Source: Rhizoctonia solani
Lineage: Eukaryota > Basidiomycota > Agaricomycetes > Cantharellales > Ceratobasidiaceae
Assembly (NCBI RefSeq): GCF_016906535.1
Contig: NC_057377.1
Coordinates: forward strand, 1,674,001 to 1,738,000
Direction of reading: 5' to 3'
DNA: 64,000 bases
This document shows, piece after piece, positions 18,434 to 60,015 of this stretch (the stretch's first letter is position 1; every line of letters starts with the position of its first letter). The notes below the pieces were generated by a model that ran no database searches, was not told where the DNA came from, and saw nothing but the letters and a program-made list of their open reading frames with translations. The position numbers were made by a program, and so were the translations under genes.

Positions 18434-21400
18434 ATGTCGTCGGCAAACAACAAGTCCAAGTCGACACGGAAGAGAATCGGAGGCTGGTTTCGCAAGCGAT
18501 TGGGTGAATCTTCGTCCCGACCGCTGTCCACGTCGTCTCCAGGACTACTATCCGCGTCACATGCATCGCTGACTTCAGGTCCGACTGACGACGGCCAGAG
18601 CAGCACTCCCGACAGACAAAACATCATCGCATCGACGGATAGGCTTTCCCACGCTCCACCATCCAACTCTCTCCCAGCACCATCTGTTCTTAATGCCGTG
18701 GCTGTACCTCACAAGTCTCCATCCTCCCAAATATCTACCCTAATCCCCGAATTAGCCATCGAGCAATCTCATGGACATGACGAGCTGCCTCTAACTAGGA
18801 CCACCACTGAGCCCGTGGGAGATAACAAAGCATGGACCAGTCTACTTGCATCGCTAAAGAAGCTAAAGGGCATGGCGAGACTGATTCCATCGGTCGCAGA
18901 TGCCGCTGGAGTGCTTCTGGATTGCTTCGACACGATTGAGGTATGTCCAAAGAGGTTTATGAATCGGCAGAGCTAACAGAGATAGTTTTACAGGCAGCTG
19001 CCAAGAGCCAGCAAGACTATGAAGACCTGGCGACAGAGCTTGTGGTGCTGAGTGATATCCTGGCCCAGCAGATAGAGGGCATAGGGTCGGAAGCAGTGTC
19101 GAAGTGTGTGTCTGGTGTCGCTCAGTACGTGAGGGTACCTAACACCCAAACCATGACTGACCGAGATGGTAGCGCGATTGAAAGGCAGGCACAAGAAATC
19201 AAGAAAAAGAGGGGGAGAGGAAAGGAGAGACGACTACAGCAGGCGAGTTCGGACGAGGAAGATGTGATGCGACACTATCGGCGAATCGAGTCGCTGTTTC
19301 GGCAGCTGCAGGTCAGTATTCATGCCGTCGTTGGATGCTTTAGCGTATGCTGATAGGATGATAGGCAAACCTGAGCATGAATACATGGAGTGTCGCAAAC
19401 GATCTGATGGTGGTATGCGTGACACTCCCAGAGATGGCTATGTACTTAAACTAGAATGAACAGAACACACGACTGGAAGGTCTGGGACCGGAGAAGCAGG
19501 CGGCATACGACTCGGCACTCTCGGAAACCGTCGGCAGGCGCACATGTACCGAAGGCACGCGCACAAAAGTCCTATCTGACCTAGTGGAATGGGCACACGA
19601 CAAGAACGCACCTGCGATATACTGGATGAACGGCATGGCAGGCACGGGCAAGACGACGATCGCGTACTCATTCGCTGAATGGCTGAAGCAACACGAGCTA
19701 CTGGCGGGGAGCTTCTTCTGCACTCGGACGTCAGCTGCGTGTCGGGACGTGGCGAAGATCGTACCGACGGTAGTATACCAGCTGGCGCGGTACTCGGCGA
19801 CATTCCAATCGATACTATACGATATCCTGAGCGCGGAACCTGATGCAGCAACGAAAAACATAACGAACCAGTTCGAGTCGCTACTGAAAGAGGCACTGGA
19901 AAAAACAAGGGGAAAGGGCAAGGGCGATGCATTCGACAACCTGGTTATAGTCATCGATGCGCTGGATGAGTGTGAAGACCCCAGAGGCGTAGAAACCATA
20001 CTTGACAGACTGTTCCAGTACGCACCTCACCTAGGGCTCAAGTTCTTCGTTACCAGTCGGCCGGAGCCTGGGATATACGCCAAAATGGCGGTCAACGTTG
20101 GGTGCCGGGGCGGGATGGTACTACACGACATCGAGACGTCGCTTGTGAGCAAAGATATCGAGCTGTACCTCGAACAAGAGCTGGCGTCCATTCCACTTCG
20201 TGTTCCCGAGTCGGATCTCAAGCAACTTGTAGATCGATCGGGCGCGTTGTTCATCTATGCGGCCACACTCGTTCGATACATCCGTACCGCAAAACGCAGC
20301 GTCAATCCATACGACCGCCTACAATCGATCCTTGCCTCATCTTCAGGATCCAGTCGGGAACATGCACAGATTGATAAACTATATCTAGCCGTATTGGAGT
20401 CGGCATTGGAGGACGAAGAGCTAGAGCATTCGGAAAGGGAGGCCATCCTAGCGGTGTTGCATACTGTGCTTATGACTCAAGAGCCAATTCGCGTCGAGAC
20501 CATAGCGCTATTAGCCGGGATCGATGGGCCAGAGCGGGTAGAGTACGCGCTTGCCCCACTCCGGTCGGTGCTGCATCAGTCCGAGTCGACGGGCCTTGTG
20601 TCCACTCTGCATGCATCGTTCCCAGACTTCATGTTCAGCCATACACGATCGGGGTCATACTTCTGCGACGTCGACAAACATAGCCCCGGAATGGCCCATC
20701 GATGCTTCACAGTGATGAAGGACCAGCTGCGGTTCAACATATGCGACCTGCCTTCCTCGTTCATACCGGACGAAAACGTCGATAACTTACAAGACCGGAT
20801 CAAACACCGGATCTCGGCGTCACTGGCATATGTGTGCCGGTACTGGGCCAGTCATGTCAGCCTTGCACCTGCGAACGACGATCTACGCGAGGACATGAGT
20901 GTGTTCCTATCGGAGCGACTACTGTTCTGGATGGAGGTCATGAGCTTGCGACGTGAGCTGTTGGCAGGGATCGAAGGATTTCTGGCGCTGAAGCAGTGGC
21001 TGAGGGTGAGTGGGTCAACGCTTTCCGATACAGTGACTGATGTAGCAGTACATAAGAAAACCAACTCTCAAAAACCCGAGGTGGCGATATTGATCGAGGA
21101 CGCCAGCAACTTCTACACCAGCTATGCCTCCAGCCCAGCGTGTCATTGCACACCGCACATCTACATCTCATGCCTTCCATTCTGTCCTCGGTCGAGCACA
21201 GTGTACAAGCACTACTGGCCTCGGATGCAAGGGCTGGTGGAGCTGAAGGGCAGTCTGATGGACCGCAGAGAGACAGCCGCACTGGCCACCTGGAACATTC
21301 ACTCGCCAGTATGGTCGGTGGCGTACTCAGGGGATGGCAGTCGAGTTGCAGTCGGATGCCTGGACGGAACAGTGAGCATACGGAACGCATACGATGGCAC

Positions 21401-22964
21401 ATTGCTTGTTGGACCCTGGAATGCTCACACTGATGTTGTTCGTTCGGTTGTGTTCTCGCCTGATGGCAGACTTGTTGCCTCGGGGTCAGATGATCGCACC
21501 ATCGGAGTGTGGGACGTGCGCACCGGCAGTCCTGTTGCCGGCCCATTCCGCGGACACACCAGCTGGGTCTACTCGGTTTCGTTCTCACCCGACAGCAAGC
21601 GCATAGTCTCTGGCTCCGACGACAACACCGTTTGTATATGGGACACGGCCAATGGCACACTGCTTGTGCGCCCATTGCGCAGTCATACTGACTCAGTCCG
21701 CTTCGTGACGTTCTCGCCCGACGGCACACTCATTGCCTCTGCCTCCAAGGACAAGACTATCCGACTGTGGCGCTCGGACGACGGCACTCCTGCTACTTCC
21801 CCACTTCAAGGTCACACCCACTCTGTCAACTCTGTTACGTTCACGCCCGATGGCACTTGGCTTGTCAGCGGGTCAGACGACGGGACCGTTCGTGTGCGGA
21901 GGGTGTCGGATGGGTCGGCCGTCGCCACTCCATTTCAGGGTCATTCAGGTGGCGTCTACTCGGTGGCAGTGTCACCTGATGGCATGCTTGTTGCATCTGG
22001 GTCTGACGATTGTACTGTGCGAGTGTGGAGGATGAGCGATGGGTCACTTGCTGCCAGTCCATTTGTTGGCCATACTGGTTGGATTGGGTCAGTTGGGTAC
22101 TCACCGGATGGGACGCAAGTCATCTCTGGCTCTGGTGATCAGACCGTTCGTGTTTGGAATGTGCGCGAAGGCATGATGTCCCCTGCCTCCTCAGAAGTTA
22201 CTCTATCCCATATCACATCCCTCTCTTTCTTGCCTGATAGCGCTCATGTGTTGACAGTGTCAGATGAGGACGAGATGCGCATGTGGGATGTCTCGAGTGG
22301 CATATCCCAGCCAGCGCCACCCGACATCCAGGTTCCCCATCCTCCATCTCATGCAGCATCTCCCGATAGGTCCTACACTGCTGAAACTAATACGCATGGA
22401 AAGCTAGTACAGGTTGTGCGGACGGACAACAAGTCTGTGGCTGCTGGGCCGTTTGATCCCACCCCTCGAGTATCGCAATTCTCTCACGACAGTACCTGCG
22501 TCATCGTGGGCTTTTGGGATGGCAGGATTGAGAGGATATGTCTGCGGACTGGGCAGACTGCGTTCCAGTTGCGCCCCGGTGACAACGACTGCGTTAACCT
22601 GATTGCAGAGTGCCCGGATGGTTCACTTCTTGCCTCCATTGAAGACACCTCGTACGACAGTCCCATCCTACGAATCTGGAGCATGGCTGGACCGACACTC
22701 TGTTTTCGAACCTCAGACGATCCCCCTCTCAATCCAGAGCCAGGTCAGACACTCTCTGGACCTTACGACCAATGCCATATCGACAGCGATGGGTGGATGG
22801 TCAACAGCAACAACGACCTGCTTATTTGGCTTCCGTCAGAGATAGCTGCTGCAGGACTGTCTCCGTTCGTGTCGGTGATCGTAACAAAAACAGGAACACT
22901 GCAAGTACCGAAGCAGATGCTGGTAGCCGGACATCAGTGGCATAAGTGTCATGTGTTGGGCTGA
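18434..22964 (+). CDS. NACHT-WD40 NLR-like protein B
   Basis: Exons 18434-18940, 18994-19124, 19173-19311, 19365-19412, 19464-21005 and 21057-22964 give 1,424 residues. The start MSSANNKSKS matches the MSxxNNRS starts of C, D, E and G. Basic tail (KRIGGWFRKRLG), Ser/Thr/Pro-rich spacer, helical domain (about 125-275, with LKKLKGMARLIPSVADAAG), Walker A at 332-339, Walker B VIVIDALDEC at about 435, linker, then WD40 from 864 to 1,332. Seven canonical blades are followed by about four divergent ones and the C-terminal DGWMV to HQWHKC domain. Oddities: blade 5 has VRVRR where all others have VRVWR or VRAWR, losing the WD-motif Trp, and intron 5 (51 nt) contains no in-frame stop, so it could stay in the message or be exonic. 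The NACHT half belongs to the C/D/F subfamily. Confidence 0.92.
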
Positions 22965-25218: not shown

Positions 25219-25228
25219 CCACGTGGTC
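25219..25228 (+). promoter_or_regulatory. CCACGTGGTC box upstream of gene C
   Basis: Palindromic CACGTG-core element (bHLH-type binding site in general terms), 330 bp upstream of TATAAA, followed by a conserved CTTTCTGC stretch. Confidence 0.55.
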
Positions 25229-25611: not shown

Positions 25612-28600
25612 ATGTCGACGAGTAACAACAGGTCAAGAAATAAGAAAGGAAAAGTGCGACGCTGGCTGGATAGTCTCCTCTGCGTGTCGTCGCCCGAGTC
25701 ATCGCCCGCTCCGTCTGCTCATCGAGACTCGACCTCACATCGACCACTCGCTTTGGAACCAGCCAGCAGCGGTCAGAACACCGAACCCAGTAGACAGAAC
25801 ATGATCCCATCGACCAACGAGCCCCGCCTCGCTGTGCCATCCGACTCTCTCCCAGTGCCTTCCGCACTTAGCGCCGAACCCCAAATCCCTCCACCGGTTT
25901 CGACAAGGGCCCATACTCCTGTTCCTGACTCTACTGCCAAAGTGGATGGAGCCAAGGGCACCGAGTCCGGCTCGCCCTTACCGACGCCAAACCCCGAGCT
26001 GGTCGACGATCAATCTCACGCAGTCCACGAGGCGGCCCCAGCTACGACCACGACAGAACCAGCGGAAGCCACGAACAAAACATGGGCTGGGCTACCTGGA
26101 TCGCTCAGAAAGCTGATGAGCGTGGCTGGATTGATTCCCTCGGTTGGGGATGCTGCTAGAGTGCTTCTTGACTGCGTGGACACGACCGAGGTGCGTCAAA
26201 GAGACACTCTGATGAGATGCTTATCAAACACGACTATATAGGTGGCTGCCAACAACAAGCGAGACTACGAAGATCTGGAAACGGAGCTCACCGCGCTGAG
26301 CGACACCCTGGCCCAGCAGATCGAGGGCATGGAATCGGAAGCAGTGTCGAAGTGTGTGTCTGGCGTTGCTCAGTACGTGTCAACTACTATAGCCTATGCC
26401 TTAGCTGACCGAGAGACTAGCGGGATCGAGAAGCAGGCGAATGAGATCAAGAAGAAGAAAGAAAGAGGAACAGCAAGGCCACTGTTGGAGGCAAGCTCGG
26501 ACGAGGAAGATGTGATGCGACACTACCGGCGGATACAGTCGCTGTTTCGGCAGCTGCAGGTCAGTATCCATGTCGTCAGTAAAGACTTTAGCGTATGCTG
26601 ATACGATGATAGGCGAACCTGAGCATGAATACCTGGAGTGTCGCACACGATCTGATGGTGGTATGTGTGACACTTCCTGAGACGCCCATATACTCAAAGC
26701 GTGAACTGGACAGAACACGCGGCTAGAGGGCCTAGGACCAGAGAGGCAAGCTGCATACGACTCGGCGCTCTCGGAAACCGTCGGCAGGCGCACATGTACC
26801 GAAGGCACGCGCACCAAAGTCCTATCTGACCTAGTGGAATGGGTACACGACAAGAACGCACCTGCGATATACTGGATGAACGGCATGGCGGGCACGGGCA
26901 AGACGACGATCGCATACTCATTCGCGGAATGGCTGAAGCAGCACGAGCTACTGGCGGGGAGCTTCTTCTGCACTCGGACGTCGGCTGCGTGCCGGGACGT
27001 GGCGAAGATCGTACCGACGGTGGTATACCAGCTGGCGCGGTACTCGGCGACATTCCAATCGATACTATACGACATCCTGAATGCAGATCCTGACGCCGGG
27101 TCGAAGAGCATACCAAAGCAGTTCGAGGCGCTACTGAAAGAGGCGTTGCAGAAGACAGCGGAAAAGGGCAAAGGCGATGCACTCGACAACCTGGTGGTAG
27201 TGATCGATGCGCTGGACGAATGCGAAGACCAGAGGGGCGTAGAGACCATAGTCGACATGCTGTTCCGTTACGCGCCTCACCTTGGGCTCAAGTTCTTCGT
27301 TACCAGTCGACCAGAGCCTGGGATATACACCAAAATGACGGCGAATGTTGATCTTCGGGGCGGGATGGTGCTGCATGACATCGAGCAGTCGCTGGTGAGC
27401 AAAGACATCAAGCTGTACCTGGAGCAAGAGCTGGCACGCATCCCCGTTGATATTTCCGACATGGACCTTGAGGGGCTTGTGGATCGGTCGGGAGCGCTGT
27501 TCATCTATGCAGCCACACTCGTCCGGTATATTGGCACCGTGAAGGTCGACCCGTACGATCGCCTACAAGCAATACTTCACTCGACTCCGGGGGCCGATCG
27601 GGAGCACCCACAAATCGATGAGCTATATACGGCAATACTAATGTCGGCGTTGGAAGACAAGGACCTGGGCGAGCCGGATAAGGAAAGGATCCGAGCGGTG
27701 TTACGTACGGTGCTTATGGCCCAGGAGCCGATCGGTGTGGAGACCATTGCCCTACTAGCCGGGATCGACAGTTCGAGGCGTGTGGAGTACGCGCTCTTGC
27801 CGCTCCGGTCGGTGCTGCATCAGTCCGAGTCGACGGGTCTCGTGTCTACGCTGCACGCATCGTTCCCAGACTTCATGTTCAGTCCTACACGATCGGGGTC
27901 ATACTTCTGCGACATCGACAAACATAGCCCCGGAATGGTCTATCGATGCTTTGCAGTGATGAAAGACCAGCTGCGGTTCAACATATGCGACCTGCCTTCG
28001 TCGTTCATAGCCGATGAAAACGTCGACAACTTGCAAGACCGGATCAAACACCGGATCTCGCCGTCACTGGCATATGTGTGTCGGTACTGGACCAGTCATG
28101 TCAGCGTTGCACCTGCGAACGACGATCTACTGGAGGACCTGAGTGTGTTCCTATCGGAGCGGCTGCTATTCTGGATGGAGGTCATGAGCCTGCGACGTGA
28201 GCTGCTGGTAGGGATCGAAGGGTTTCTGGCACTGAAGCAGTGGCTGAAAGTGAGTGGCTTGACGCTTTCGGATACAGTGACTGATGCAGCAGTACATAGA
28301 AAACGAAGGGTCAAACATCCGAGGTGGCGATATTGATCGAGGACGCCAGCAACTTCTACACCAGCTATGCCTCCAGCTCAGCATGTCGCTGCACACCGCA
28401 CATCTACATCTCATGCCTTCCGTTCTGTCCTCGATCAAGCACGGTGTACAAGCAGTACTGGCCCCGGATGCAAGGGCTGGTGGAGCTGAAGGGCAGCCTG
28501 ATGGACCGCAGAGAGACAGCCGCACTGGCCACCTGGAACATTCGCTCGACAGTACGGTCGGTGGCGTACTCAGGGGATGGCAGTCGAGTTGCAGTCGGAT

Positions 28601-30207
28601 GCTATGACGGAACAGTGAGCATACGGAACGCATACGATGGCACGCTGCTTGTTGGGCCCTGGAATGCTCACACCGGGGATGTTCGTTCAGTTGTGTTCTC
28701 GCCTGATGGCAGACTTGTTGCCTCGGGGGCATATGATTGCACCATCAGAGTGTGGGACGTGCGCACTGGCACTCCTGTTGCCGGCCCATTCCGCGGTCAC
28801 ACCGACTATGTCAACTCAGTCTCGTTCTCACCCGGCAGCAAGCGCATAGTCTCTGGCTCCGGCGACAAGACCGTTTGTATATGGGACACGGCCGATGGTA
28901 CACTGCTTGTGGGTCCGTTGCACGGTCATACCGGCTCAGTCAACTCCGTGACGTACTCACCCGACGGCACACTCATTGCCTCTGCTTCTGAAGACAAGAC
29001 TATCCGACTGTGGCACTCGGACGACGGCACTCCTGCTGCTTCCCCACTTCAAGGTCACACCGACTTTGTCAACTCTGTTACGTTCACGCCCGATGGCACT
29101 CGACTTGTCAGCGGGTCATACGACGGGACCGTTCGTGTGTGGAGGGTGTCGGATGGGTCGGCTGTCGCCACTCCATTTCAGGGTCATTCAGGTCGCGTCT
29201 TCTCGGTGGCAGTGTCGCCTGATGGCATGCTTGTTGCATCTGGCTCCGGGGATCGTACTGTGCGAGTGTGGAGGATGAGCGATGGGTCACTTGCTGCCGG
29301 TCCATTTCTTGGCCATACTCTTACGATTTTGTCAGTTGGGTACTCACCGGATGGGACGCGAGTCATCTCTGGCTCTTATGATGGGACCGTTCGTGTTTGG
29401 AATGTGCGGGAAGGCATGGCGTCCCCTGCCTCCTCAGAAGCTGGTCCATCATACATCACATCCCTCTGGTTCTCGCCTGATGGCGCTCATGTGTTGACAG
29501 TGTCGGGTCAGGGCGAGAGGCGCATGTGGGATGTCTCGAGTGGCATATCCCAGCCAGCGCCACCCGATACCCAGATTCCTCACCCCCCATCCGATGTAGC
29601 ATCTCCTGATAGGTCCTACACTGCTGAAACCGATACGCGTGGAGAGCTAGCACAGGTTGTGCGCACGGACGACAGGTCTGTGGCTGTTGGGCCGTTTGAT
29701 CGCCCCCCTCGAGTATGGCAGTTCTCTCACGACAGTACCTGCGTCATTGTGGGCTTTTTGGATGGCAGGATTGAGGGGATATGTCTACAGACTGGGCAGA
29801 CTGTGTTCCAGTTGCGCTCTGATAACGACGACTATGTTGCCCTGATTGCAGAGTGCCCGGATCATTCACTTCTTGCCTCTTTTGACAGCAGCGTGTTGCA
29901 TACTTCCCCCACTATACGAATCTGGAGCATGGCTGGACCTACACTCTGTTTTCAATCTTCAGACGATCCCTCTCTCGATCCGGGGCCAGGTCAAACACTC
30001 TCTGGAATTTACGACCAATGCCATATCAACAGGGATGGGTGGATGGTCAGCAGCAACGGCCTGCTGCTGTGCCTTCCTTCGGAGATAGCTGACGCAGGAC
30101 TGTCTCCGTTTGCGTCAGTTATTGTCGCAACGTTAGGAACACTACAAGTATCGAAGCAGATGCTATTGGTCGGGCCGGAGTGGGACAAATGCTACATACG
30201 GGGCTGA
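25612..30207 (+). CDS. NACHT-WD40 NLR-like protein C
   Basis: Exons 25612-26190, 26242-26372, 26421-26559, 26613-26660, 26714-28249 and 28300-30207 give 1,446 residues. The N-terminus MSTSNNRSRNKKGKVRRW and the LDSLLCVSSPES stretch are followed by a Pro/Ser/Thr-rich spacer. Then come a helical domain (about 160-299; SLRKLMSVAGLIPS, DEEDVMRHYRRIQ), Walker A at about 356, Walker B VVVIDALDEC, and a WD40 exon from residue 812. An apparent break after the NACHT ORF is only intron 5 (50 nt, GTGAGT to TACATAG); removal restores the frame to KTKGQTSEVAILIED. Blade 1 reads RSTVRSV, blade 2 GDVRSV, blade 3 DYVNSV, each different from every paralogue. The last residues (LLVGPEWDKCYIRG) and the 3' flank match gene E, not D, F or G. 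Confidence 0.92.
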
Positions 30208-31999: not shown

Positions 32000-33280
32000 A
32001 GGACATCAACAATAGAAAGCAAGGCAAAGTCTAAGCGAGAGAGGACTTGGCGGTGGATTGGTAGTCAGTTAGGTGGGTGTTTGCGCCAGTCTATGTCGAT
32101 CTGATCACTACGGCTAACGTTGGCGCCACTGTCCTTCAGGCGTTTCGGACCCGGCCAGTGATAACCATGGAGGCACCTCTGGTGAAGAGAACATAACACC
32201 CTACATTAGTCGACTGTCGTTTCGTATCTCGACATTTGACCGTCCATCCGGGGCCAAGGGCGGAGCATGGGCTGGGCTCCGGGTGTTGCTCAAGACGCTG
32301 AGGGAAACTCCCGCCATGTTTGGTCCAGTCGTCTCGGCGGCAAGTATACTGCTCGACTGCCTGGACACTATTGAGGTGTGTCGGCCATACCTGTGCTCCA
32401 CTACCCCCACCGCTAACGCGTACTCATCATAGGCGGTGGCGCGAAATCAACGCGACTACGAGTATCTGGCGACCGAGCTTGGTGCACTCAGCAAATCGCT
32501 AGTGATCACCTATAAGAGAGCTGCACCAGGCTCAGATAGCGACTGCGTGACTGGGATTGCCAAGTAGGTCGACGGACTAGTTATTCATGTTGCATGATGA
32601 CTGACAGGATGCAAAGAGCAACCGAACGAGAGGCAAAAGAAACCGAGAGCAAGACTGAACGGAGGACTGGGAGGCGGATGCTGATGGCGAACGCGGACCA
32701 GCAGGACCTAATGGAACGGTGCAAGCGGATAGAGTCACTGTTTCGGCAGTTGCAGGTGGGTGCATAGCCAATTATCCATGACCGGGCTCGGCGCTTACGA
32801 ATGAGCAGACGAACACTGGGATGAGTACTTGGGCAAACACAAATGAACTAGTGGTGGCGCGTACTGCCTAGCATGGGCGAGAGCGAGTGGTGAAGTCTAA
32901 CTGTCAAGCTTAACAGAACTTCAGACTGGCGGTACTAAACGCGCAGATGAAGGCAACATACGACTCACAGCTCTCATCATCGACCAACAGACGGACATGC
33001 ACAGAAGGCACACGGGTTCAGGTACTCCACAAACTCAAGGGCTGGGCGTACAACACGCGAGGACAAGCAGCATACTGGATGAGCGGTATGGCAGGCACCG
33101 GCAAGACCACGATCGCGTGCACGTTCGCCGAGTGGCTCGAGAGAGAAGCTGCTGGCGCCAAGCTTCTTCTATATGCGGGCCTCTGCCGACTGCCACGACG
33201 TAACTCGGATGATACCTACGGGGGCATACCAGCTCACAGGGTACTCCGTCCCATTCCAGCTTTGGTCAGCCTCTCCTATA
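32000..33280 (+). pseudogene. Truncated NACHT NLR pseudogene (E/G subfamily)
   Basis: Remnant of an E/G-type gene. The start codon appears changed (AGG at 32,000 in the frame that reads ESKAKSKRERTWRW). Exon 1 is rearranged, apparently with an extra intron, up to its intact end (FGPVVSAASILLDCLDTIE). Exon 2 (32433-32563) and exon 3 (32608-32755) are open, with exon 3 9 nt longer than in paralogues. The donor after exon 4 reads GC instead of GT. Exon 5 (from 32,917) keeps the CTEGTR lead-in and Walker A MAGTGKTT, then a one-base shift at about 33,150 breaks the frame. Homology stops at about 33,280, where the D-unit upstream repeat begins, so the rest of NACHT and all WD40 blades are missing. 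Confidence 0.88.
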
Positions 33281-42826: not shown

Positions 42827-45800
42827 ATGTCGACTGCGAACAACAGGTCGAATAGGAAGAAAGGGAAAGTGCGACGCTGGCTGGATAGTCTGCTCTGCGT
42901 CTCATCGCCCGAGGCTCCAGTCGCGCCATCCACCCAGCAGCGCCCGTCTTCGTATGCCTCGTTCCCTCTAGAACCGATCCAAGACGCCCACACAGGTACC
43001 CCCAATGATGACAACACCGCACAACAAGGGCCTTTGTATGCATCACTCCCTGCAGAACCGACCCAAAGTGCCCACGTAGATTCGGTCAATGACGAGAACG
43101 CACCCCTTCCGACAGCCCGACCGTCAGCTCAAATCAGTACCCCTCCCGATACATCAGGCGTCAAGAGCGGAGCGTGGGCTGGGCTTCGGTTGACTCTCAA
43201 GACCCTGAGAGACACTCCTGCGATGTTCGGCCCACTCGTCTCCGCAGCCAATGTACTTCTCGAATGCTTCGATACTATCGAGGTGTGTTATGCAAGGAAT
43301 ATACTATAGCTCTCGTTGCTGACGCGTACTCTACGATAGGCGGTCGCGCGGAACCAGCAAGACTACGAGCAACTGGCCACCGAGCTTGATGCGCTCAGCA
43401 AATCGCTTCTCAGGACATGCAAGGAGGTCGCACCAGGCTCAGCTGCCGATTGTGTAGCTGGGATCGTCAAGTATGTTGACCGGCTAGCTGTGAGCCTTGT
43501 ACGGTAACTGACAGGGGTGCACAGTACGATCAAACGAGAGGCGAATGGGATCGACAGCAAACTCGAGCGCGGGACTGAGAGACGGGCGCTGATGGCGAAC
43601 GCGGACGAACAGGATCTGATGAGGCGATACCGGCGGATACAGTCGCTGTTTCGGCAGCTGCAGGTGGGTGCATACGTTGTCGTTGATGATTGTGCTCGGC
43701 GCTTATGTATGGACAGACGAACGTTGGGATGAGCACCTGGGCAAACACGAATGAATTAGTGGCGGTGTGTATGACCTGATGTGGCTACACTGTGTACACT
43801 GACCGATCGAGTGAACAGAAATCAAGGCTTGGGGAACTGAACGCAGAAAAGAAGGCAACATACGACTCACAGCTCTCGGGACCGACCAACCGACGGACAT
43901 GCACCGAAGGCACGCGGGTCAAAGTACTCGACGAACTCAAAGACTGGGTGATCGAGGCAGCTGGACAGTCAGTATATTGGATGAGTGGCATGGCGGGCAC
44001 CGGCAAGACCACGATCGCATGTACGTTTGCCAAGTGGCTCGAAGCCGAGAAGCTGCTGGCGGCGAGTTTCTTCTGCACGCGGACCTCTGCCGACTGTCAG
44101 GACGTAACCCGAATCATACCGACGGTGGCATACCAGCTTGCACAATACTCTATCCCGTTCCAGTCGGCGCTATACGAGATCCTTGGCAACAATCGAGACA
44201 TAGGGTCAAAGAACATCGCGGCGCAGTTCGAAAAGCTGATACTAGAACCGCTAAACAGAATGAAGGACGACATACCGGACGGGATGGTAGTGGTGATCGA
44301 TGCGCTGGATGAGTGCAAAGACCAAGGCGGAGTGGGAAAGCTACTAGATATGCTATTCAGGCACGCTGCTCAGCTGCCAGTCCGGTTCTTCGTGACCAGT
44401 CGACCCGAGTCGGGCATCTACGCAACGATGGCGGCGCACGCAGCGTGTCACGAGGCTATACACCTGCACAAGATCGAGGAGTCGCTGGTCAGCGCGGATA
44501 TCAAGCTGTACCTGGAAGAGGTGCTTGCGCCAATATCGCCTCAGGCATCCGACATTGAGGAGCTTGTTCGACGCTCCGGGGTGCTGTTCATCTATGCGGC
44601 CACTCTTTTCCGCTACATCTTGCCCACGGGCCGGAAGGCTAACTCGCAGAAACGGCTCCGAGACATCATGGCCATGGCTCCGGAGGCTGTGATGGGACAC
44701 GCGCAGATTGATTTGCTGTACACGGTGGTGCTGAAGTCGGCGCTAGAAGACGAGGAAACGAACGAGGAAGAGAAGAACGACGTCCGGGCGGTACTTAACA
44801 CCGTGTTGCTTGCGCAAGAGCCGATTGGGATCCAAACCATCGCGGTCCTCGGCGCAATCGGGGATACGTCTCGAGTGGAGTATGCGCTGCGATCGCTGAG
44901 CTCTGTGCTGTACGAGTCGGGCACGGGTCTGGTATCAACCCTACACGCCTCGTTTCCGGACTTCATGTTCGACGAGAAGCGATCTGAGGCCTACTTTTGC
45001 GACACATCCAAGCACAGTCTACCGGTGGCGCGGCGATGCTTCGAGGTGATGAAGAAACAGCTACGAATGAACATATGCAACCTGCCGTCATCGTTCATGC
45101 GCGACAAGGATGTCAAGAACCTGAACGAGCTGATCGAATCGAACATCTCACCCCTGCTCGCATATGTATGCCGCTATTGGGCAAACCACCTCCGGCCAGT
45201 GCTGGAGGTAGATGAAATGGAGGGGGCGCTGGGCGAGTTTCTATTGACGCGACTGCTGTTCTGGATGGAGGTGTTGAGCGTGCGGGGAGATCTATCTACA
45301 GGAGTGGGTACGGTGCAGCTGATGAATGCCAAGCAGTGGCTGATGGTGAGTGAAGCGGCATGCACGTTATCTGTTTGCTGAGGCTTGAGCTGGTAGTCAT
45401 TTGGGCCCCACGGCTCTCGGTCAACGCTGGCAGTAAATACGGAAGATGCTATCAACTTCGTGGCAGGGCACACATCCAGCCCAGCGTCTAAATCAACCCC
45501 ACATATCTACATCTCGTCACTCGCATTCTGTGCCCGATCAAGCTATGTATACAAGCACTACCGGCCTCGGATGCAAGGGCTGGTGGAGCTGAAAGGCAGT
45601 CTGATGGACCGCAGAGAGACAGCCGCACTGGCCACCTGGAACATCCGCTCCGAAGTATGGTCAGTGGCGTACTCAGGGGATGGCAGTCGAGTTGCAGTCG
45701 GGTGTCAGGACGGAACAGTGAGCATACGGAACGCATACGATGGCACGCTGCTTGTTGGGCCCTGGAAGGCTCACACCTTTATTGTTCTTTCGGTTGTGTT

Positions 45801-47313
45801 CTCGCCTGATGGCAGACTTCTTGCCTCGGGGTCAAATGATTGCACCATCGGAGTGTGGGACATGCGCACCGGCACTCCTGTTGCCGGCCCATTCCGCGGT
45901 CACACCAGCTATGTCGACTCGGTCTCGTTCTCACCCGACAGCAAGTGCGCAGTCTCTGGCTCCGACGACAAGACCGTTTGTATATGGGACACGGCCGATG
46001 GCGCACTGCTTGTGGGTCCGTTGCACGGTCATACCGGCTCAGTCAACTCCGTGACGTACTCACCCGACGGCACACTCATTGCCTCTGCCTCTTACGACAA
46101 GACTATCCGACTGTGGCGCTCGGACGACGGCACTCCTGCTGGTTCTCCACTTCAAGGTCACACCGACTCTGTCTCGTACGTTACGTTCACGCCCGATGGC
46201 ACTCGACTTGTCAGCGGGTCATCCGACAAGACCGTTCGTGTGTGGAGGGTGTCGGATGGGTCGGCTGTCGCCACTCTATTTCAGGGTCATTCAGGTGGCG
46301 TCTACTCGGTGGCAGTGTCGCCTGATGGCATGCTTGTTGCATCTGGCTCTTATGATCGTACCGTGCGAGTGTGGAGGATGAGCGATGGGTCACTTGCTGC
46401 CGGTCCATTTCTTGGCCATACTGATATGATTCGGTCAGTTGGGTACTCACCTGATGGGACGCGAGTCATCTCTGGCTCTGATGATGGGACCGTTCGTGTT
46501 TGGAATGTGCGCGAAGGCATGACGTCCCCCGCCTCTTCACAAGTTTCTCTATCCCGTATCGCATCCCTCTCTTTCTCGCCTGATGGCGCTCATGTGTTGA
46601 CAGTGTCGCGTGAGGGCGAGAGGCGCATGTGGGATGTCTCGAATGGCAAACCCCAGCCAGCACCACCCGACATCGAGGTTCCTCATCCTCCATCTCATGC
46701 AGCATCTCCCGATAGGTCCTACACTGCTGAAACCGATACGTATGGAGGGCTAGTACAGGTTGTGCGGACGGACAACAAGTCTGTGGCTGCTGGGCCGTTT
46801 GATCGCCCCCCTCGAGTATGGCAGTTCTCTCACGACAGTACCTGCGTCATTGTGGGCTTTTGGGATGGAAAGATTGAGGGGATATGTCTGCAGGCTGGGC
46901 AGACTGCGTTCCAGTTGCGCTCTGCCGATGACGACTGGGTTGATCTGATTGCAGAGTGCCTGGATGGTTCACTTCTTGCCTCCTTTGGCAGTCATCCACT
47001 CAAAAGTTCCCCCGCTCTACGAATCTGGAGCATGGCTGGACCTACACTCTGTTTTCAATCCTCAGACCATTCCCCTCTCGATCCGGGGCCAGGTCAGACG
47101 CTCTTTGGGCTTCACGCCCGATGCCACATCAACGGAGATGGGTGGATGGTCAACAGCAGCAACCACCTACTTCTCTGGCTTCCGTCAGAGATTGCTCGTG
47201 CAGGACTGTCTCCGTTCGTGTCGGTTATTGTCACAACGTCAGGAACACTACAAGTACCAAAGCATATGCTATTGGTCGGGCCGGAGTGGGACAAATGCTA
47301 CATACGGAGCTGA
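42827..47313 (+). CDS. NACHT-WD40 NLR-like protein E
   Basis: Exons 42827-43282, 43340-43470, 43525-43663, 43717-43764, 43819-45345 and 45397-47313 give 1,405 residues. The first 25 residues (MSTANNRSNRKKGKVRRW) resemble C and D. The spacer then contains a twice-used motif (ASFPLEPIQDAHT, ASLPAEPTQSAHV), and the helical domain is of a second type (MFGPLVSAANVLLECFDTIE). NACHT is the second subfamily: Walker A MAGTGKTT at about 315, Walker B VVVIDALDEC, FVTSRPESGIYATM. After intron 5 (51 nt, ending CTGGTAG) the protein resumes SFGPHGSRSTLAVNTEDAI. From RMQGLVELKGSLMDRR onward it becomes nearly identical to the B/C/D type. The end (LLVGPEWDKCYIRS) and the 3' flank match gene C. Confidence 0.92.
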
Positions 47314-48691: not shown

Positions 48692-51600
48692 TGGTGTGTG
48701 TCTGGCGTTGCTCAGTACGTGTCAACTACTACAGCCTATGCCTTGGCTGACCGAGAGACTAGCGGGATCGAGAAGCAGGCGAATGAGATCAAGAAGAAGA
48801 AAGAAAGAGGGATAGGAAGGCCACTGTTGGAGGCAAGCTCAGACGAGAAAGATGTGATACGGCACTATCGGCGGATACAGTCGCTGTTTCGGCAGCTGCA
48901 GGTCAGTATCCATGCCGTCGTTGGATGCTTTAGCGTATACTGATGCGACGATAGGCGAACCTGAGCATGAATACGTGGAGTGTCGCAAACGATCTGATGG
49001 TGGTATGTGTGACACTTCCTGAGACACCCATATACTCAAAGCGTGAACCGGACAGAACACGCGGCTGGAGGGCCTAGGACCAGAGAGGCAGGCTGCATAC
49101 GACTCGGCGCTCTCGGAAACCGTCGGCAGGCGCACATGTACCGAAGGCACGCGCACCAAAGTCCTATCTGACCTCGTACAATGGGCACACGACAAGAACG
49201 CACCTGCGATATACTGGATGAACGGCATGGCGGGCACGGGCAAGACGACGATCGCATACTCATTCGCCGAATGGCTGAAGCAACACGAGCTACTGGCGGG
49301 GAGCTTCTTCTGCACTCGGACGTCGGCTGCGTGCCGGGACGTGGCGAAGATCGTACCGACGGTGGTGTACCAGCTGGCGCGGTACTCGGCGACATTCCAA
49401 TCGATACTATACGACATTCTGAATGCAGATCCTGACGCCGGGTCAAAGAGCATACCAAAGCAATTCGAGGCGCTACTGAAAGAGGCGTTGCAGAAGACAG
49501 TGGAAAAGGGCAAAGGTGATGCACTCGACAACCTGGTGGTAGTGATCGATGCGCTGGACGAATGCGAAGACCAAAGGGGCGTAGAGACCATAGTCGACAT
49601 GCTGTTCCGTTACGCGCCTCACCTAAGGCTCAAGTTCTTTGTTACCAGTCGACCGGAGCCTGGGATATACACCAAAATGACGGCGAATGTTGATCTTCGG
49701 GGCGGGATGGTGCTACATGACATCGAGAAGTCGCTGGTGAGCAAAGACATCAAGCTGTACCTGGAGCAAGAGCTGGCGCGCATCCCCGTTGATATTTCCG
49801 ACATGGATCTTGAGGGGCTTGTGGATCGGTCGGGAGCGCTGTTCATCTACGCAGCCACACTCGTCCGGTATATTGGCACCGTGAAGGTCGACCCGTACGA
49901 TCGCCTACAAGCAATACTTCACTCGACTCCGGGGGCCGATCAGGAGCACGCGCACATTGATGAGCTATACACAACAATACTAAAGTCGGCATTGGAAGAC
50001 AAGGACCTGGGCGAGCCGGATAAGGAAAGGATCCGAGCGGTGCTACGTACGGTGCTTATGGCCCAGGAGCCGATCGGTGTGGAGACCATTGCGCTGCTAG
50101 CCGGGATCGACGGCTCGAGGCGTGTGAAGTACGCGCTCTTACCGCTCCGGTCGGTGCTGCATCAGTCCGAGTCGACGGGCCTTGTGTCCACGCTCCATGC
50201 ATCGTTCCCGGACTTCATGTTCAGTCCTGCCCGATCGGGGTCATACTTCTGCGACATCGACAAACATGGCCCCGGAATGGCCCGTCGATGCTTCACAGTG
50301 ATGAAGGACCAGCTGCGGTTCAACATATGCGACCTGCCTTCGTCGTTCATACCCGATGAAAACGTCAACAACCTGCAAGACCGGATCAAAAACCGGATCT
50401 CGGCGACATTGGCATATGTGTGCCGGTATTGGGCCAGTCATGTCGGTCTCACACCTGCAAACGACGACCTACTGGAGGACCTGAGTGTGTTCCTATCGGA
50501 GCGGCTACTGTTCTGGATGGAGGTCATGAGCCTGCGGCGTGAGCTGCTAGCAGGGATCGAAGGGTTTCTGGTACTGAAACAGTGGCTGAGGGTGAGTGGG
50601 TCAACGCTTTTGGATACAGCGACCTGATGCAATAGTACATAAGAAAACAAAGAGTCAAACATCTAAGGTGGCGATATTGATCGAGGACGCCAGTAACTTC
50701 TACACCAGCTATGCCTCCAGCGGAGCGTGTCGTTGCACGCCGCACATCTACATCTCATGCCTTCCGTTCTGTCCTCGATCAAGCATGGTGTACAAGCAGT
50801 ACTGGCCTCGGATGCAAGGGCTGGTGGAGCTGAAGGGCAGTCTGATGGACCGCAGAGAGACAGCCGCACTAGCCGCCTGGAACATTCACTCGTCAGTATG
50901 GTCGGTGGCGTACTCAGGGGATGGCAGTCAAGTTGCAGTCGGATGCCTGGACGGAACAGTGAGCATACGGAACGCATACGATGGCACGCTGCTTGTTGGG
51001 CCCTGGAAAGCTCACACCGCTGCTGTTCGTTCGGTTGTGTTCTCGGCTGATGGCAGACTTGTTGCCTCGGGGTCATATGATGGCACCATCGGAGTGTGGG
51101 ACGTGCGCACCGGCAGTCCTGTTGCCGGTCCATTCCACGGTTGCACCGGCAATGTCTTTTTGGTTTCGTTCTCACCTGACAGCAAGCGCATAGTTTCTGG
51201 CTCCTTGGACAACACCGTTTGTATATGGGACACGGCCGATGGCACACTGCTTGTGGGTCCGTTGCACGGTCATACTGGCTCAGTCAACTCCGTGACGTAC
51301 TCACCCAACGGCACTCTCATTGCCTCTGCTTCTGAAGACAAGACTATCCGATTGTGGCACTCGGACGACGGCACTCCTGCTGCTTCCCCACTTCAAGGTC
51401 ACACCCACTCTGTCAACTCTGTTACGTTCACGCCCGATGGCACTCGACTTGTCAGCGGGTCATCCGCCGACACCGTTCGTGTGTGGAGGGTGTCGGATGG
51501 GTCGGCTGTCGCCACTCCATTTCAGGGTCATTCACGTAGCGTCTACTCGGTGGCAGTGTCGCCTGATGGCATGTTTGTTGCATCTGGGTCTGACGATCGT

Positions 51601-52554
51601 ACCGTGCGAGTGTGGAGGATGAGCGATGGGTCACTTGCTGCCAGTCCATTTCTTGGCCATACTGGTTGGATTGGGTCAGTTGGGTACTCACCGGATGGGA
51701 CGCAAGTCATCTCTGGGTCTGGTGATCAGACCGTTCGTGTTTGGAATGTGCGCGAAGGCATGATGTCCCCTGCCTCCTCAGAAGTTGGTCTATCAGATAT
51801 CAGATCCCTCTCTTTCTCGCCTGATGGCGCTCATGTGTTGACAGTGTCGCATGAGGACGAGGTGCGCATGTGGGACGTCTCAAGTGGCATATCCCAGCCA
51901 GCGCCACCCAACATCCAGGTTCCTCATCCTCCATCTGATGCAGCATCTCCCAATAGGTCCTACACTGCTGAAACTAATACGCATGGAAAGCTAGTACAGG
52001 TTGTGCGGACGGACAACAAGTCTGTGGCTGCTGGGCCGTTTGATCGCACCCCTCAAGTATGGCGGTTCTCTCACGACAGTACCTGCGTCATTGTGGGCTT
52101 TGATGATGGCAGGATTGAGGGGATATGTCTGCAGACTGGGCAGATTGCGTTTCAGCTACGCTCCGCTAATGACGACCGGGTTCACCTGATTGCAGAGTGC
52201 CCGGATCATTCACTTCTTGCCTCTTTTGACAGCGGCCTGTTCCATACTTCCCCCACTATACGAATCTGGAGCATGGCTGGACCTACACTCTGTTTTCAAT
52301 CCTCAGACAATCCCTCTCTCGATCCGGGGCCAGGTCAGACACTCTCTGGACTTTACGACCAATGCCATATCAACAGTGATGGGTGGATGGTCAACAGCCA
52401 CATGGATTTACTGCTCTGGCTTCCGTCAGAGATAGCTGATGCATCACTGTCTCCGTTCGTGTCGGTGATTGTAACAGAGTCAGGGACACTACAAGTACCG
52501 AAGCAGATGCTGGTAACCGGGGATCAGTGGCATCAATGCTATGTTCAGGGTTGA
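48692..52554 (+). CDS. NACHT-WD40 NLR-like gene F, 5'-truncated
   Basis: Homology to C and D starts abruptly inside exon 2, at GTGTGTCTGGCGTTGCTCA. Exon 1 and about four fifths of exon 2, with the normal promoter, are gone. The remaining exons keep normal lengths: 48763-48901, 48955-49002, 49056-50591 and 50644-52554. Walker A GMAGTGKTT, Walker B and all WD40 blades are open, so the NACHT-WD40 part (about 1,210 residues) looks intact and may be read from an internal start (for example the ATG at 49,218) or a new 5' exon. I found no in-frame way to splice the 48,540 ORF onto exon 3. Oddities: DEKDVIRHYRR where others have DEEDVMRHYRR, blade 3 HGCTGNV (His of the GH pair lost) and blade 5 SSADTVRVW. 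It could be a pseudogene or a sensor lacking its N-terminal effector domain. Confidence 0.75.
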
Positions 52555-55136: not shown

Positions 55137-55146
55137 CCACGTGGTC
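55137..55146 (+). promoter_or_regulatory. CCACGTGGTC box upstream of gene G
   Basis: Within GACCACGTGGTC, 329 bp before TATAAA at 55,466. Confidence 0.55.
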
Positions 55147-55465: not shown

Positions 55466-55471
55466 TATAAA
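55466..55471 (+). promoter_or_regulatory. TATA box, gene G
   Basis: TATAAA in TTACTATAAACGATCC, 63 bp before the ATG. Confidence 0.65.
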
Positions 55472-55528
55472 CGATCCGAGGACGAGCTCTCACTCTCAGT
55501 CTATCCAACGACGACGAATAATCGAAAA

Positions 55529-58500
55529 ATGTCGACTCGGAACAACAGGTCGAATAGAAAGAAAGGGAAAGTGCGACGCTGGCTGGATAGTCTACTCTGC
55601 GTGTCATCGCCCGAGGATCCAGTCGGGCCGTCCACCCAGCAGCGCCCGTCTTCGCATGCCTCGTTCCCTCTAGAACCGATCCAAGACGCCCACACAGATA
55701 CCCCAAATGATGACAACACCGCACAACAAGGGCCTTCACATGCATCACTTCCTGCAGAACCGACCCAAAGCGCCGATGTAGATTCGGTCAATGACGAGAA
55801 CGCACCCCTTCCGACAGCCCGACCGTCAGCTCAAATCAGTACCCCTCCCGATACATCAGGCGTCAAGAGCGGGGCATGGACTGGGCTTCGGCTGACTCTC
55901 AAGACCCTGAGAGACACTCCTGCGATGTTCGGTCCACTCGCCTCCGCAGCCAACGTACTTCTTGACTGCTTCGATACTATCGAGGTGTGTCAGGCAGGGA
56001 ATGTACTATAGCTCTCGTTGCTGACACGTACTCTATGACAGGCGGTCGCGCGGAACCAGCAAGACTACGAGCAACTGGCCACCGAGCTTGATGCGCTCAG
56101 CAAATCGCTTGTCACGACATGCAAGGAGGTCGCACCAGGCTCAGCTGCCGACTGCGTGACTGGGATCGCCAAGTATGTCGGCCGGCTAGCTGTGAGCCTT
56201 GTACGGTAACTGACAGGGGTGCACAGTACGATCAAACGAGAGGCGAATGAGATCGACAGCAAACTCGAGCGCGGGACTGGGAGACGGGCGCTGATGGTGA
56301 ACGCGGACGAACAGGATCTGATGAGGCGGTACAGGCGGATACAGTCGCTGTTTCGGCAGCTGCAGGTGGGTGCATACGTTGTCGTTGACGATGGTGCTTA
56401 GCGCTTATGTATGGGCAGACGAACATGGGGATGAGTACCTGGGCAAACACGAACGAACTAGTGGCGGTGTGTATGACCTGATGTGGCTACACTGTGTACG
56501 TTGACCGATCGAGTGAACAGAAATCAAGGCTTGGGGAACTGAACGCGGAGAAAAAGGCAACATACGACTCACAGCTCTCGGGACCGACCAACCGACGGAC
56601 ATGCACCGAAGGCACGCGGGTCAAAGTACTCGACGAACTCAAAGCCTGGGTGCTCGAGGCAGCCGGACAGTCAGTATACTGGATGAGTGGCATGGCGGGA
56701 ACTGGCAAGACCACGATCGCATGTACGTTTGCCAAGTGGCTCGAAGGCGAGAAGCTGCTAGCGGCGAGCTTCTTCTGCACGCGGACCTCTGCCGACTGTC
56801 AGGACGTAACCCGAATCATACCGACGGTGGCATACCAGCTTGCACGATACTCTATCCCATTCCGGTCGGCACTGTGCGATATTCTCGGGAACGACTCGGA
56901 TATAGGGTCAAAGGACATCGCGGCGCAGTTCGAAAAGCTGATACTAGAACCGCTAAACAGAATGAAGGACGACATACCGGACGGGATGGTGGTGGTGATC
57001 GATGCGCTGGATGAGTGCAAAGACCAAGGCGGAGTGGGAAAGCTACTAGATATGCTATTCAGGCACGCCGCTCAGCTGCCGGTCCGGTTCTTCGTGACCA
57101 GTCGACCCGAGTCGGGGATCTACGCAACGATGGCGGCGCACGCAGCGTGTCACGAGGCTATACACCTGCACAAGATCGAGGAGTCGCTGGTCAGCGCGGA
57201 CATCAAGCTGTACCTGGAAGAGGTGCTTGCGCCAATATCGCCTCAGGCATCCGACATCGAGGAGCTTGTTCGACGATCCGGGGTGCTGTTCATCTATGCG
57301 GCCACTCTTTTCCGCTACATCTTGCCCACGGGCCGGAAGGCTAACTCGCAGAAACGGCTCCGAGACATCATGGCCATGGCTCCGGAGGCTGTGATGGGAC
57401 ACGCGCAGATTGATTTGCTGTACATGGTGGTGCTGAAGTCGGCGCTGGAAGACGAGGAAACGAACGAGGAAGAGAAGGACGACGTCCGGGCGGTACTTAA
57501 CACCGTGTTGCTTGCGCAAGAGCCGATTGGGATCCAAACCATCGCGGTCCTCGGCGGAGTGGGCGATACGTCTCGAGTGGAGTATGCGCTGCGATCGCTG
57601 AGCTCTGTGCTGTACGAGTCGGGCACGGGTCTGGTGTCAACCCTACACGCCTCGTTTCCGGATTTCATGTTCGACGAGAAGCGATCTGGAACCTACTTTT
57701 GCGACGCACCCAAGCACAGTCTACTGGTGGTGCGGCGATGCTTCGAGGTGATGAAGAAACAGCTACGAATGAACATCTGCAATCTGCCGTCATCGTTTGT
57801 GCGCGACAAGGATGTCAAGAACCTGAACGAGCTGATCGAATCGAACATCTCACCCCTGCTCGCATATGTATGCCGCTATTGGGCAAGCCACCTTCTGCCA
57901 GTGCTGGAGGTAGATGAAATGGAGGCGGCGCTGGGCGAATTTCTATCGACGCGATTGCTGTTCTGGATGGAGGTGCTGAGCGTGCGGGGAGATCTATCTA
58001 CAGGAGCGGGTACGGTGCAGTTGTTGAATGCCAAGCAGTGGCTGACGGTGAGTGAAGCAGCATGCACGTTATCTGTTTGCTGATGCTCGAGCTGGTAGTC
58101 ATTTGGGCCCCAAGAGTCTCGGTCAAAGCTGGCGGTGACGATGGAAGATGTTATCAACTTCGTGGCAGGGCACACATCCAGCCCAGCATCTGAATCGACC
58201 CCGCATATCTACATCTCGTCACTTCCATTCTGTGCGCGATCAAGCTATGTATACAAGCACTACCGGTCGCGGATGCAAGGGCTGGTGGAGCTGAAGGGCA
58301 GTCTGATGGACCGCAGAGAGACAGCCGCACTGGCCACCTGGAACATTCCCTCGCCAGTATGGTCGGTGGCGTACTCAGGGGATGGCAGTCAAGTTGCAGT
58401 CGGATGCCTGGACGGAACAGTGAGCATACGGAACGCATACGATGGCACGCTGCTTGTTGGGCCCTGGAATGCTCACACCAAGGACGTTTGTTCGGTTGTG

Positions 58501-60015
58501 TTCTCGCCTGATGGCAGACTTGTTGCCTCGGGGTCATATGATGGCACCATCGGAGTGTGGGACGTGCGCACCGGCAGTCCTGTTGCCGGCCCATTCCGCG
58601 GTCACACCAGCTATGTCCACTCGGTCTCGTTCTCACCCGACAGCAAGCGCATAGTCTCTGGCTCCGGCGACAAGACCGTTTGTATATGGGACGTAGCCGA
58701 TGGCACACTGCTTGTGGGTCCGTTGCACGGTCATACCGACTCAGTCCTTTCCGTGACGTACTCGCCCGACGGCACACTCATTGCCTCTGCCTCCAAGGAC
58801 AAGACTATCCGACTGTGGCGCTCGGACGACGGCACTCCTACTGCTTCCCCACTTCAAGGTCACACCGACTCTGTCTCGTCTGTTGCGTTCACGCCCGATG
58901 GCACTCGACTTATCAGCGGGTCTGACGACGAGACCGTTCGTGCGTGGAGGGTGTCGGATGGATCGGCTGTCGCCACTCCATTTCAGGGTCATTCAGGTCG
59001 CGTCAACTCGGTGGCAGTGTCGCCTGATGGCATGCTTGTTGCATCTGGGTCTGAAGATCATACTGTGCGAGTGTGGAGGATCAGCGATGGGTCACTTGCT
59101 GCCGGTCCATTTCTTGGCCATACTAGTATGATTTTGTCAGTTGGGTACTCACCGGATGGGACGCGAGTCATCTCTGGCTCTATTGATGGGTCCGTTCGTG
59201 TTTGGAATGTGCGCGAAGGCATGATGTCCCCCGCCTCCTCAGAAGTTTCTCTATCAGATATCACATCCCTCTCTTTCTCGCCTGATGGCGCTCATGTGCT
59301 GACAGTGTCGGGTGAGGACGAGATGCGCATGTGGGATGTCTCGAGTGGCATATCCCAGCCAGCGCCACCCGACATCCAGGTTCCTCACCCCCCATCCGAT
59401 GTAGCATCTCCCGATAGGTCCTACACTGCTGAGACCAATACGTATGGACGGCTAGTACAGGTTGTGCGCACGGACGACAAGTCTGTGGCTGCTGGGCCGT
59501 TTGATCCTACCCCTCTAGTATGGCAGTTCTCTCACGACAGTACCTGCGTCGTTGTGGGCTTTTCGGATGGCGGGATTGAGGGGATATGTCTGCAGACTGG
59601 GCAGACTGCATTCCAGTTGCGCTCTGCCGATGACGACTGGGTTGATCTGATTGCAGAGTGCCCGGATGGTTCACTTCTTGCCTCCTTTGACAGCCATCCA
59701 CTTAAAACTTCCCCCGCTCTACGAATCTGGAGCATGGCTGGACCGACACTCTGTTTTCGATCTTCAGACGATCCCCCTTTCGATCCAGGGCCAGGTCAGG
59801 CACTTTCTGGACTTCACGCCCAATGCCATATCGACAGGGATGGGTGGATGGTCAACAACCACAACGACCTGCTGATCTGGCTTCCGTCGGAGATAGCTGA
59901 CGCAGGACTGTCTCCGTTCGTGTCGGTGATCGTAACAACGTTATGGACACTACAAATACCGAAGCAGATGCTGGTAGCCGGGGATCGGTGGCATCAATGC
60001 TATGTACAGCGCTGA
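55529..60015 (+). CDS. NACHT-WD40 NLR-like protein G
   Basis: Exons 55529-55984, 56042-56172, 56227-56365, 56419-56466, 56521-58047 and 58099-60015 give 1,405 residues, exon for exon equal in length to gene E. The start MSTRNNRSNRKKGKVRRW, the ASFPLEPIQDAHT/ASLPAEPTQSADV spacer and the NACHT half are very close to E. Walker A is at about 315, and the region after intron 5 reads SFGPQESRSKLAVTMEDV. WD40 blades carry their own set of variable residues: KDVCS, SYVHS, DSVLS, DSVSS, GRVNS, SMILS. Unlike E, the tail ends MLVAGDRWHQC and the 3' flank is of the D/F type. So E and G share N-terminal and NACHT parts but differ in where their C-termini come from. Confidence 0.92.

Follow-up and report, generated by a model that had tools for sequence, protein, structure and literature searches.

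Diversifying selection at motif-flanking positions of homogenised WD40 propellers in a NACHT-WD40 gene array of Rhizoctonia solani

In Podospora, the HNWD/NWD genes, among them HET-E, HET-D and HET-R, encode NACHT-WD40 receptors in which positive selection is reported at repeat codons 7, 9, 25 and 27, two pairs that flank the conserved codons 8 and 26, themselves 18 apart (PMC1805685). Their repeats are further described as being exchanged within and between genes, with changes in repeat number (PMC1805685, PMC2873952), and for HET-E a model with two 7-blade propellers, the C-terminal blades being degenerate, has been proposed (PMC12222747). On a wider scale, a survey of fungal NLRs reports that WD40 repeats prevail in basidiomycetes and that repeat surfaces are under diversifying selection, its criterion being repeats that share more than 85% identity inside a single protein across 100 residues or more (PMC4986451), and bacterial sensors diversified by retroelements are presented as putative antigen sensors with targeted variation (PMC10907252). 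Here we describe an array of NACHT-WD40 receptor genes in Rhizoctonia solani (genome of 40.7 Mb in 16 contigs), in which nearly constant WD40 propellers vary at a few motif positions per blade. Part of the array lies in the stretch analysed, the 64,000 nucleotides of contig C8 from 1674001 to 1738000 (hereafter the window, in whose coordinates features are given unless marked C8). We found no description of the array among the open-licence papers listed in our searches.

Copies in the window are lettered A to G in left-to-right order, and H, I, O, N, J, K and M are additional copies on the contig. Copy C's NACHT exon, used as a query, gave 129 candidates, of which 80 were scored; 16 of these 80 NACHT matches fell at C8 1.688-1.968 Mb, which shows the family to be larger than the window. 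Among the matches listed, the closest proteins are from R. solani, several of them annotated as 'Vegetative incompatibility protein HET-E-1'. The NPHP3_N model PF24883 matches the NACHT frames of B, C and E with 97-106 bits against a cut-off of 24.8, PF05729 exceeds its own cut-off in E and stays below it in C, and the NACHT of D, F and G was assigned through similarity to C. The WD40 frames of A, B, C and E, those scanned, score far above the PF00400 cut-off, and the remaining copies were assigned by alignment. From this domain content, NACHT/NPHP3_N followed by C-terminal WD40, the window genes are predicted to be of the NACHT-WD40 STAND (NLR) type.

The array shares with the Podospora genes the NACHT-WD40 receptor architecture, concerted evolution of the WD40 region between loci and across NACHT clades, and positive selection at codons flanking a conserved Val and Asp. 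It differs from HNWD genes in that the HET domain turned up in none of the array-type N-terminal sequences scanned, and two positions before the Val vary where Podospora has one. With the fungal NLRs of high internal conservation it has in common the NLR architecture, the WD40 repeats and the diversifying selection on repeat surfaces that the survey reports, but the array blades are far less alike within one gene, and a repertoire of this type would presumably escape the internal-conservation criterion given there (PMC4986451). The seven canonical blades and the divergent C-terminal part of the array propellers may resemble the two-propeller model put forward for HET-E (PMC12222747).

Selection at positions flanking the conserved Val and Asp

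Blade residues were numbered so that the Val of HTxxVxSV is 13 and the Asp of SGSxDxT is 31, in a 42-residue count, and the variable set was defined as positions 11, 12, 14, 30 and 32 in each of blades 1-7 (35 sites, with position 11 entering from the finding itself), against a framework of 259 codons. The WD40 framework is nearly constant across B-G, and also in H and I. Over blades 1-7 of the eight copies B-I, 20 of the 294 columns hold at least four residues, and all 20 are at the 35 sites (hypergeometric p 6.6e-22); the Podospora-type positions alone (28 sites) account for 17 of the 20 (p 1.4e-17). When the site set is moved by -6 to +8 codons, the mean number of residues per site drops from 3.69 to 1.17-2.43. 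Each of the six window copies that were compared, B-G, carries its own 35-site haplotype, with a mean of 23.3/35 differences between two copies.

An earlier note on this DNA had described near-identical propellers with variable motif positions, and this pattern is confirmed, except that position 32 is clearly less variable than the note implied (mean of 2.43 residue kinds per site in B-G). The blade-2 dipeptides it listed for B-G, namely DV, GD, DY, FI, AA and KD (codons 28675-28680 in copy C), were reproduced exactly by alignment and codon listing. The codons around this dipeptide, said to be identical, are so for CAC two codons before it and GTT directly after it (6/6 copies each), but the Thr codon in between alternates between ACT and ACC. 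As for the supposed correspondence with the selected sites of HET-E, HET-D and HET-R, four of the five positions match by spacing, Val13 and Asp31 being likewise 18 apart, and the fifth is unmatched.

Nei-Gojobori (NG86) counts over B-I give a proportion of nonsynonymous differences (pN) of 0.417 and of synonymous differences (pS) of 0.192 at the 35 sites, as against a pN of 0.036 and a pS of 0.087 in the framework. For the same eight copies, a codon likelihood model with fixed site classes puts the dN/dS ratio (omega) at 8.8 for the sites versus 0.48 for the framework, with a likelihood-ratio test (LRT) statistic of 238 against omega = 1, and an omega of 7.2 when the sites are given their own synonymous rate; with 12 copies, site omega is 7.4 (LRT 363). 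Because recombination is present, the fits were repeated on other trees, where site omega is 9.3 on a star tree, 12.4-13.2 on three random trees and 4.1-22.0 on seven per-blade trees (LRT 7.2-41.3, the weakest being blade 4 with 7.2). The diversifying selection that the note had suspected is thus borne out, since no tree tried gives dN/dS at or below 1 at the variable sites, omega being 4-22 throughout. By fixed effects likelihood (FEL), which has little power for single sites with eight copies, 8/35 sites are positive among B-I versus 1/259 framework codons, and 3/273 codons are positive beyond blade 7 (6/273 among B-N). Replacement change indeed extends beyond blade 7, with a pN of 0.114 and a pS of 0.198 from blade 8 to the end (B-I). 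The selection programs were our own implementations, not HyPhy or PAML, and the likelihood fits were short optimiser runs; with 12 copies, the fit that gave the sites a synonymous rate of their own did not converge and reached a worse likelihood than the simpler model, and its value was not used. These results show diversifying selection at the variable sites.

In the 12 copies B-N the commonest residues are Arg, Asn, Tyr, Leu and Trp at position 14 and Asp, Tyr, Gly and Glu at position 30, and such residues are frequent in contact surfaces. The earlier note had asked whether the variable sites cluster on one propeller face. By a published sequence rule, positions 12, 14 and 30 correspond to R1-2, R1 and D-1, the hotspots of the WD40 top face defined from 36 crystal structures (PMC3419727), and positions 11 and 32 fall outside the rule. 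For Podospora, homology modelling has put the matching residues at the interaction surface (PMC1805685, PMC2873952). Judged from these published rules and the shared register, the variable positions are likely top-face contacts.

Exchange of propellers between NACHT lineages

Two NACHT lineages alternate along the array, N-I (B, C, D, F and I) and N-II (E, G, H and O), the N-II NACHT being 57-58% identical to that of C at the protein level. In a NACHT tree of 12 copies (H left out, O included, rooted by midpoint only), N-I, N-II and J-N each form one side of a branch with 100/100 support, and by NACHT distance N-II is nearer to J, K and M (pS 0.41-0.56) than to N-I. Over the 15 pairs of an N-I and an N-II copy (O excluded, H compared over the 281 NACHT codons before its stop), pS is 0.61-0.68 in the NACHT but 0.045-0.110 in the WD40 framework, where divergence between lineages is no higher than within them (0.057-0.116). 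Identity jumps near the start of the WD40 exon from about 65% to above 90%, as between C and E (about 65% to 92%). The WD40 trees separate J-N from the rest with 100/100 support but intermingle N-I and N-II, and neither of these two lineages is a single clade in any bootstrap tree (0/200). A four-gamete test on the informative sites of B-I, with the variable codons masked, finds compatible pairs clustered (p 0.0005). The propellers are homogenised across two NACHT lineages, and recombination has taken place between paralogs.

This exchange keeps the blade register, which sets the array apart from the within-gene shuffling seen in Podospora. For all 84 blades examined (12 copies with 7 blades each), the nearest blade is the one at the same position in another gene; mean blade identity is 0.871 for the same position in different genes and 0.543 for different positions in the same gene. 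Blades 1-7 form seven recognisable blades of constant length, with no gap codon in 12/12 copies B-N, so that blade number does not vary among these array copies of one genome, unlike the repeat number in Podospora. Whereas repeats within a Podospora gene are near-identical, within-gene DNA identity over strictly matching blades is 0.57-0.60 in the 12 array copies. Of 27 loci, 17 have at least two strictly matching blades, and over these 17 the within-gene blade identity is 0.51-0.60.

The framework of blades 1-7 has less than half the pS of the later blades (0.087 versus 0.198 in B-I), and between B-I and J, K and M pS is 0.20-0.27 in the framework of blades 1-7 versus 0.46-0.59 in the later blades. 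This lower synonymous divergence suggests stronger conversion or a codon constraint in the first blades.

Proposed function, relatives and competing explanations

We consider it probable that the locus is an NLR array whose propeller scaffold is homogenised by conversion and whose face positions are under diversifying selection, resulting in gene-specific contact surfaces. The genes would encode NLR (STAND) receptors built from three parts: an N-terminal domain that is probably helical, NACHT as the switch and the WD40 propeller. Gene conversion between neighbours would keep the propeller as an interchangeable scaffold, in the same blade register and across both NACHT lineages, and selection at four to five likely top-face positions per blade would give each gene a different contact surface. 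We infer that the variable residues bind ligands, a different one for each sensor, and that NACHT oligomerisation and a cell-death-type response follow upon binding, with the NACHT acting as the switch and the N-terminal domain as the output. The ligands may be non-self, either proteins of another individual met in hyphal fusion or those of a parasite, and the array would then serve as the recognition repertoire that the earlier note had in mind. We know of no incompatibility phenotype for the array.

Relatives of the array bear on this proposal. Fifteen proteins, picked for closeness to the array and matching no copy found here, were taken from the best 120 of 6492 and the best 120 of 1642 matches (P0001, P0122, P0123, P0127, P0128 and P0131 were not counted among them). 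Each was compared with the copy whose NACHT is closest, or whose WD40 is closest where no NACHT could be assigned (P0002, P0015 and P0147); several of the gene models are partial or poor. From the lack of a match here and from some of their names, these proteins are probably from other strains, and they provide, through public proteins only, the allele sampling that the earlier note proposed. In nine of the 12 proteins tested, differences are significantly enriched at the sites (Fisher p < 0.01); in the other three they are not. Specifically, P0121, which has B's NACHT (95.5%), differs from B at 16/35 sites versus 21/259 framework residues, and its later blades resemble those of I (19/263 differ, versus 56/263 from B). 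P0125 (26/35 sites versus 19/259 framework), P0126 (25/35 versus 23/259), P0129 (25/33 versus 31/240), P0132 (22/35 versus 15/259) and P0149 (17/35 versus 20/259) each reach a Fisher p of 1.2e-8 or lower against the NACHT partner, although P0125 and P0126 are of N-II type, with H as the nearest copy over 269-281 residues, and may represent different loci. Further significant cases are P0015 (12/33 versus 21/236), P0002 (3/13 versus 2/105) and P0004 (20/35 versus 22/259); P0011 (12/15 versus 7/113) and P0014 (12/32 versus 58/244) were counted without a Fisher test.

Two relatives carry residues of a second paralog in a single blade. P0124 has B's residues at 27/30 compared sites, the remaining three being the blade-3 triple, which equals that of F; past blade 7, 16/26 residues differ, and the protein seems to end in a wrongly framed tail. 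The fragment P0002 has C's residues at 10/13 sites, and the remaining three are in blade 6, where all five equal those of H (two residues at its start, different from C's on inspection by eye, were not aligned). Seen in protein only, these look like short transfers between paralogs.

Several observations weigh against the proposed reading. The codon models assume one tree, an assumption that recombination violates. With J-N included, the four-gamete signal becomes weaker (p 0.059), and the approximately unbiased (AU) test does not formally reject a single clade of N-II propellers (p 0.105 and 0.097; combined 0.064). A single propeller swap followed by divergence is compatible with that test, and the case for repeated exchange therefore rests on the four-gamete result together with the low divergence. 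Among the relatives, P0130 (N type; 0/35 sites versus 4/259 framework) and P0147 (M type; 0/35 versus 0/259) show no excess, P0124 (B type) differs at 3/30 versus 8/225 (p 0.13), and P0068 (M type), counted outside the 12, differs at 0/15 sites versus 4/118 framework residues. Since P0130, P0147 and P0068 are unchanged at the sites and the difference of P0124 is not significant, part of the family is not turning over in those comparisons.

The unchanged sites of the M- and N-type relatives would also suit divergent specialisation, in which the propeller of every paralog has its own fixed endogenous partner and selection separated the copies once, without an arms race or allorecognition; positive selection among paralogs alone does not separate this explanation from the one we propose. 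On the other hand, relatives with B-, D-, H- and J-type NACHT have different sites, though some may be other loci. The mosaic sites of P0124 and P0002 and the homogenisation of the framework across NACHT lineages also speak against a single divergence, and we regard specialisation of this kind as unlikely.

Much less likely still is an artefact of recombination and saturation, whereby dN/dS would be raised in the absence of diversifying selection, because conversion lowers framework divergence and old alleles persist at the sites. Recombination is indeed supported, and pS itself is higher at the sites than in the framework. However, pN exceeds pS by more than twofold within the very same codons, the sites' own synonymous rate still leaves omega far above 1 for eight copies, and the star and per-blade trees concur.

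A local mutational mechanism, in which targeted hypermutation or a cassette process alters these codons as in systems of the diversity-generating retroelement (DGR) or activation-induced deaminase (AID) type, is the least credible alternative: codon pairs do differ at most bases beside identical neighbours, with 82/980 pairwise site comparisons differing at all three bases, but divergence at the first, second and third codon bases is 0.472, 0.415 and 0.218 at the sites (0.040, 0.037 and 0.073 in the framework), a hotspot is not expected to spare third bases, pS among B-I is 0 at positions 13 and 31, each of which lies between variable codons, and synonymous divergence within 3 codons of the sites is not significantly raised (0.086 versus 0.060, p 0.12). 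A rise beside the sites would be the expectation if conversion were blocked around them. The third base is the least changed of the three in the variable codons, which favours selection on residues over a mutational hotspot. The array is like the DGR sensors in being a set of putative sensors with concentrated variation, and unlike them in its codon-position pattern, which points to selection; a reverse transcriptase was not searched for.

Returning to the conversion-and-selection model, we are evenly divided on whether it amounts to a distinct way of building a repertoire, in which a pool of fixed-length propellers is shared by different NACHT switches, conversion in blade register shuffles the variable patches and selection diversifies them. 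If so, near-identical repeats within a protein would not be needed, unlike in Podospora, and the arrangement may be widespread in basidiomycete NLR clusters and be missed by searches for internal repeat conservation. The array also suggests that such searches undercount hypervariable NLRs. The Podospora principle is found here in a basidiomycete array, with the codon test giving its signal in the same register and the mode of exchange being different. Because eight near-identical natural scaffolds differ pairwise at about 23 of 35 likely contact positions, the question of their ligands is directly testable.

Gene structures, damaged copies and neighbouring features

The WD40 segments of B-G, all on the + strand, are at 21129..22964 (B, to the stop codon; blades 1-7 in 21291-22172), 28372..30207 (C; 28534-29415), 37856..39694 (D; 38018-38899), 45475..47313 (E; 45637-46518), 50716..52554 (F; 50878-51759) and 58177..60015 (G; 58339-59220). 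Upstream on the same strand, the NACHT exon of B (N-I, 19455..21005) ends at a GTGAGT at 21006, and the open frames with the NACHT exons of the other copies are at 26705..28336 (C, N-I, with NPHP3_N PF24883; GTGAGT donor at 28250), 36187..37767 (D, N-I; donor at 37732), 43780..45381 (E, N-II, 57% identical to C's; donor at 45346), 49047..50627 (F, N-I; donor at 50592) and 56482..58083 (G, N-II; donor at 58048). Both exons are open in each of B-G.

In C-G the reading frame shifts between NACHT and WD40 at a short stretch that resembles an intron. An aligned AG stands at the acceptor place in 13/13 copies and GTGAGT at the donor place in 9/13 (A-I), the donor place of J, K, M and N reading GCAAGT or GCGAGT. 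A short intron is therefore the best reading of the apparent frame break. In B and I this junction intron is simply read through in frame, which in B leaves a single open frame of NACHT and WD40 at 19455-22964.

Copy A, at the array's left edge, is a diverged relative with its NACHT frame at 14189-15799 and its WD40 at 15812..17728 (+); its propeller is 47% identical and lies outside the homogenised group. Between C and D, at 32133..33259 (+), is a relic of an N-II-type N-terminal/NACHT region, for which the genome search gave no WD40 match. Three further copies on C8 are probably damaged: O (C8 1811013-1814509) is split into two WD40 frames, H (C8 1794059-1797550) has a stop in its NACHT frame after 281 codons, and N (C8 1939851-1943084) is without the last part of the propeller.

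N-terminal exon regions, with a conserved domain after a low-complexity linker, are found at 13173-13718, 18434-19320, 42827-43663 and 55529-56365; in B they comprise exons at about 18434-18952 and 18988-19320, located by tblastn with a relative and approximate at their ends. The N-terminal sequences scanned for domains were parts of the relatives P0121, P0123, P0125, P0127, P0130, P0134 and P0224 together with D's exon frame. The HET-domain model was listed neither for D's exon frame nor for the seven relatives' N-terminal parts, the N-terminal exons of the other window copies not being scanned. HeLo matches in 4/7 N-terminal sequences (best E 0.0045) are weak and non-specific, with bit scores, where shown, below the cut-off, and unrelated models match equally well or better (2OG-FeII_Oxy_6 with E 9.6e-5 in one, Gp23 with E 0.0018 in two). 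MLKL_N, like HeLo a cell-death domain, matches one sequence weakly (E 0.015), and a profile search of these N-terminal sequences against the PDB gave nothing convincing (best E 0.024).

Other contigs of the same genome, such as C2, C3, C6, C9, C10, C14 and C15, hold many additional NACHT-WD40 matches, and Ceratobasidium theobromae is the source of many listed relatives, which suggests large expansions there too. At the right end of the window, a long open frame at 62619-63998 runs off the end and encodes low-complexity charged sequence.

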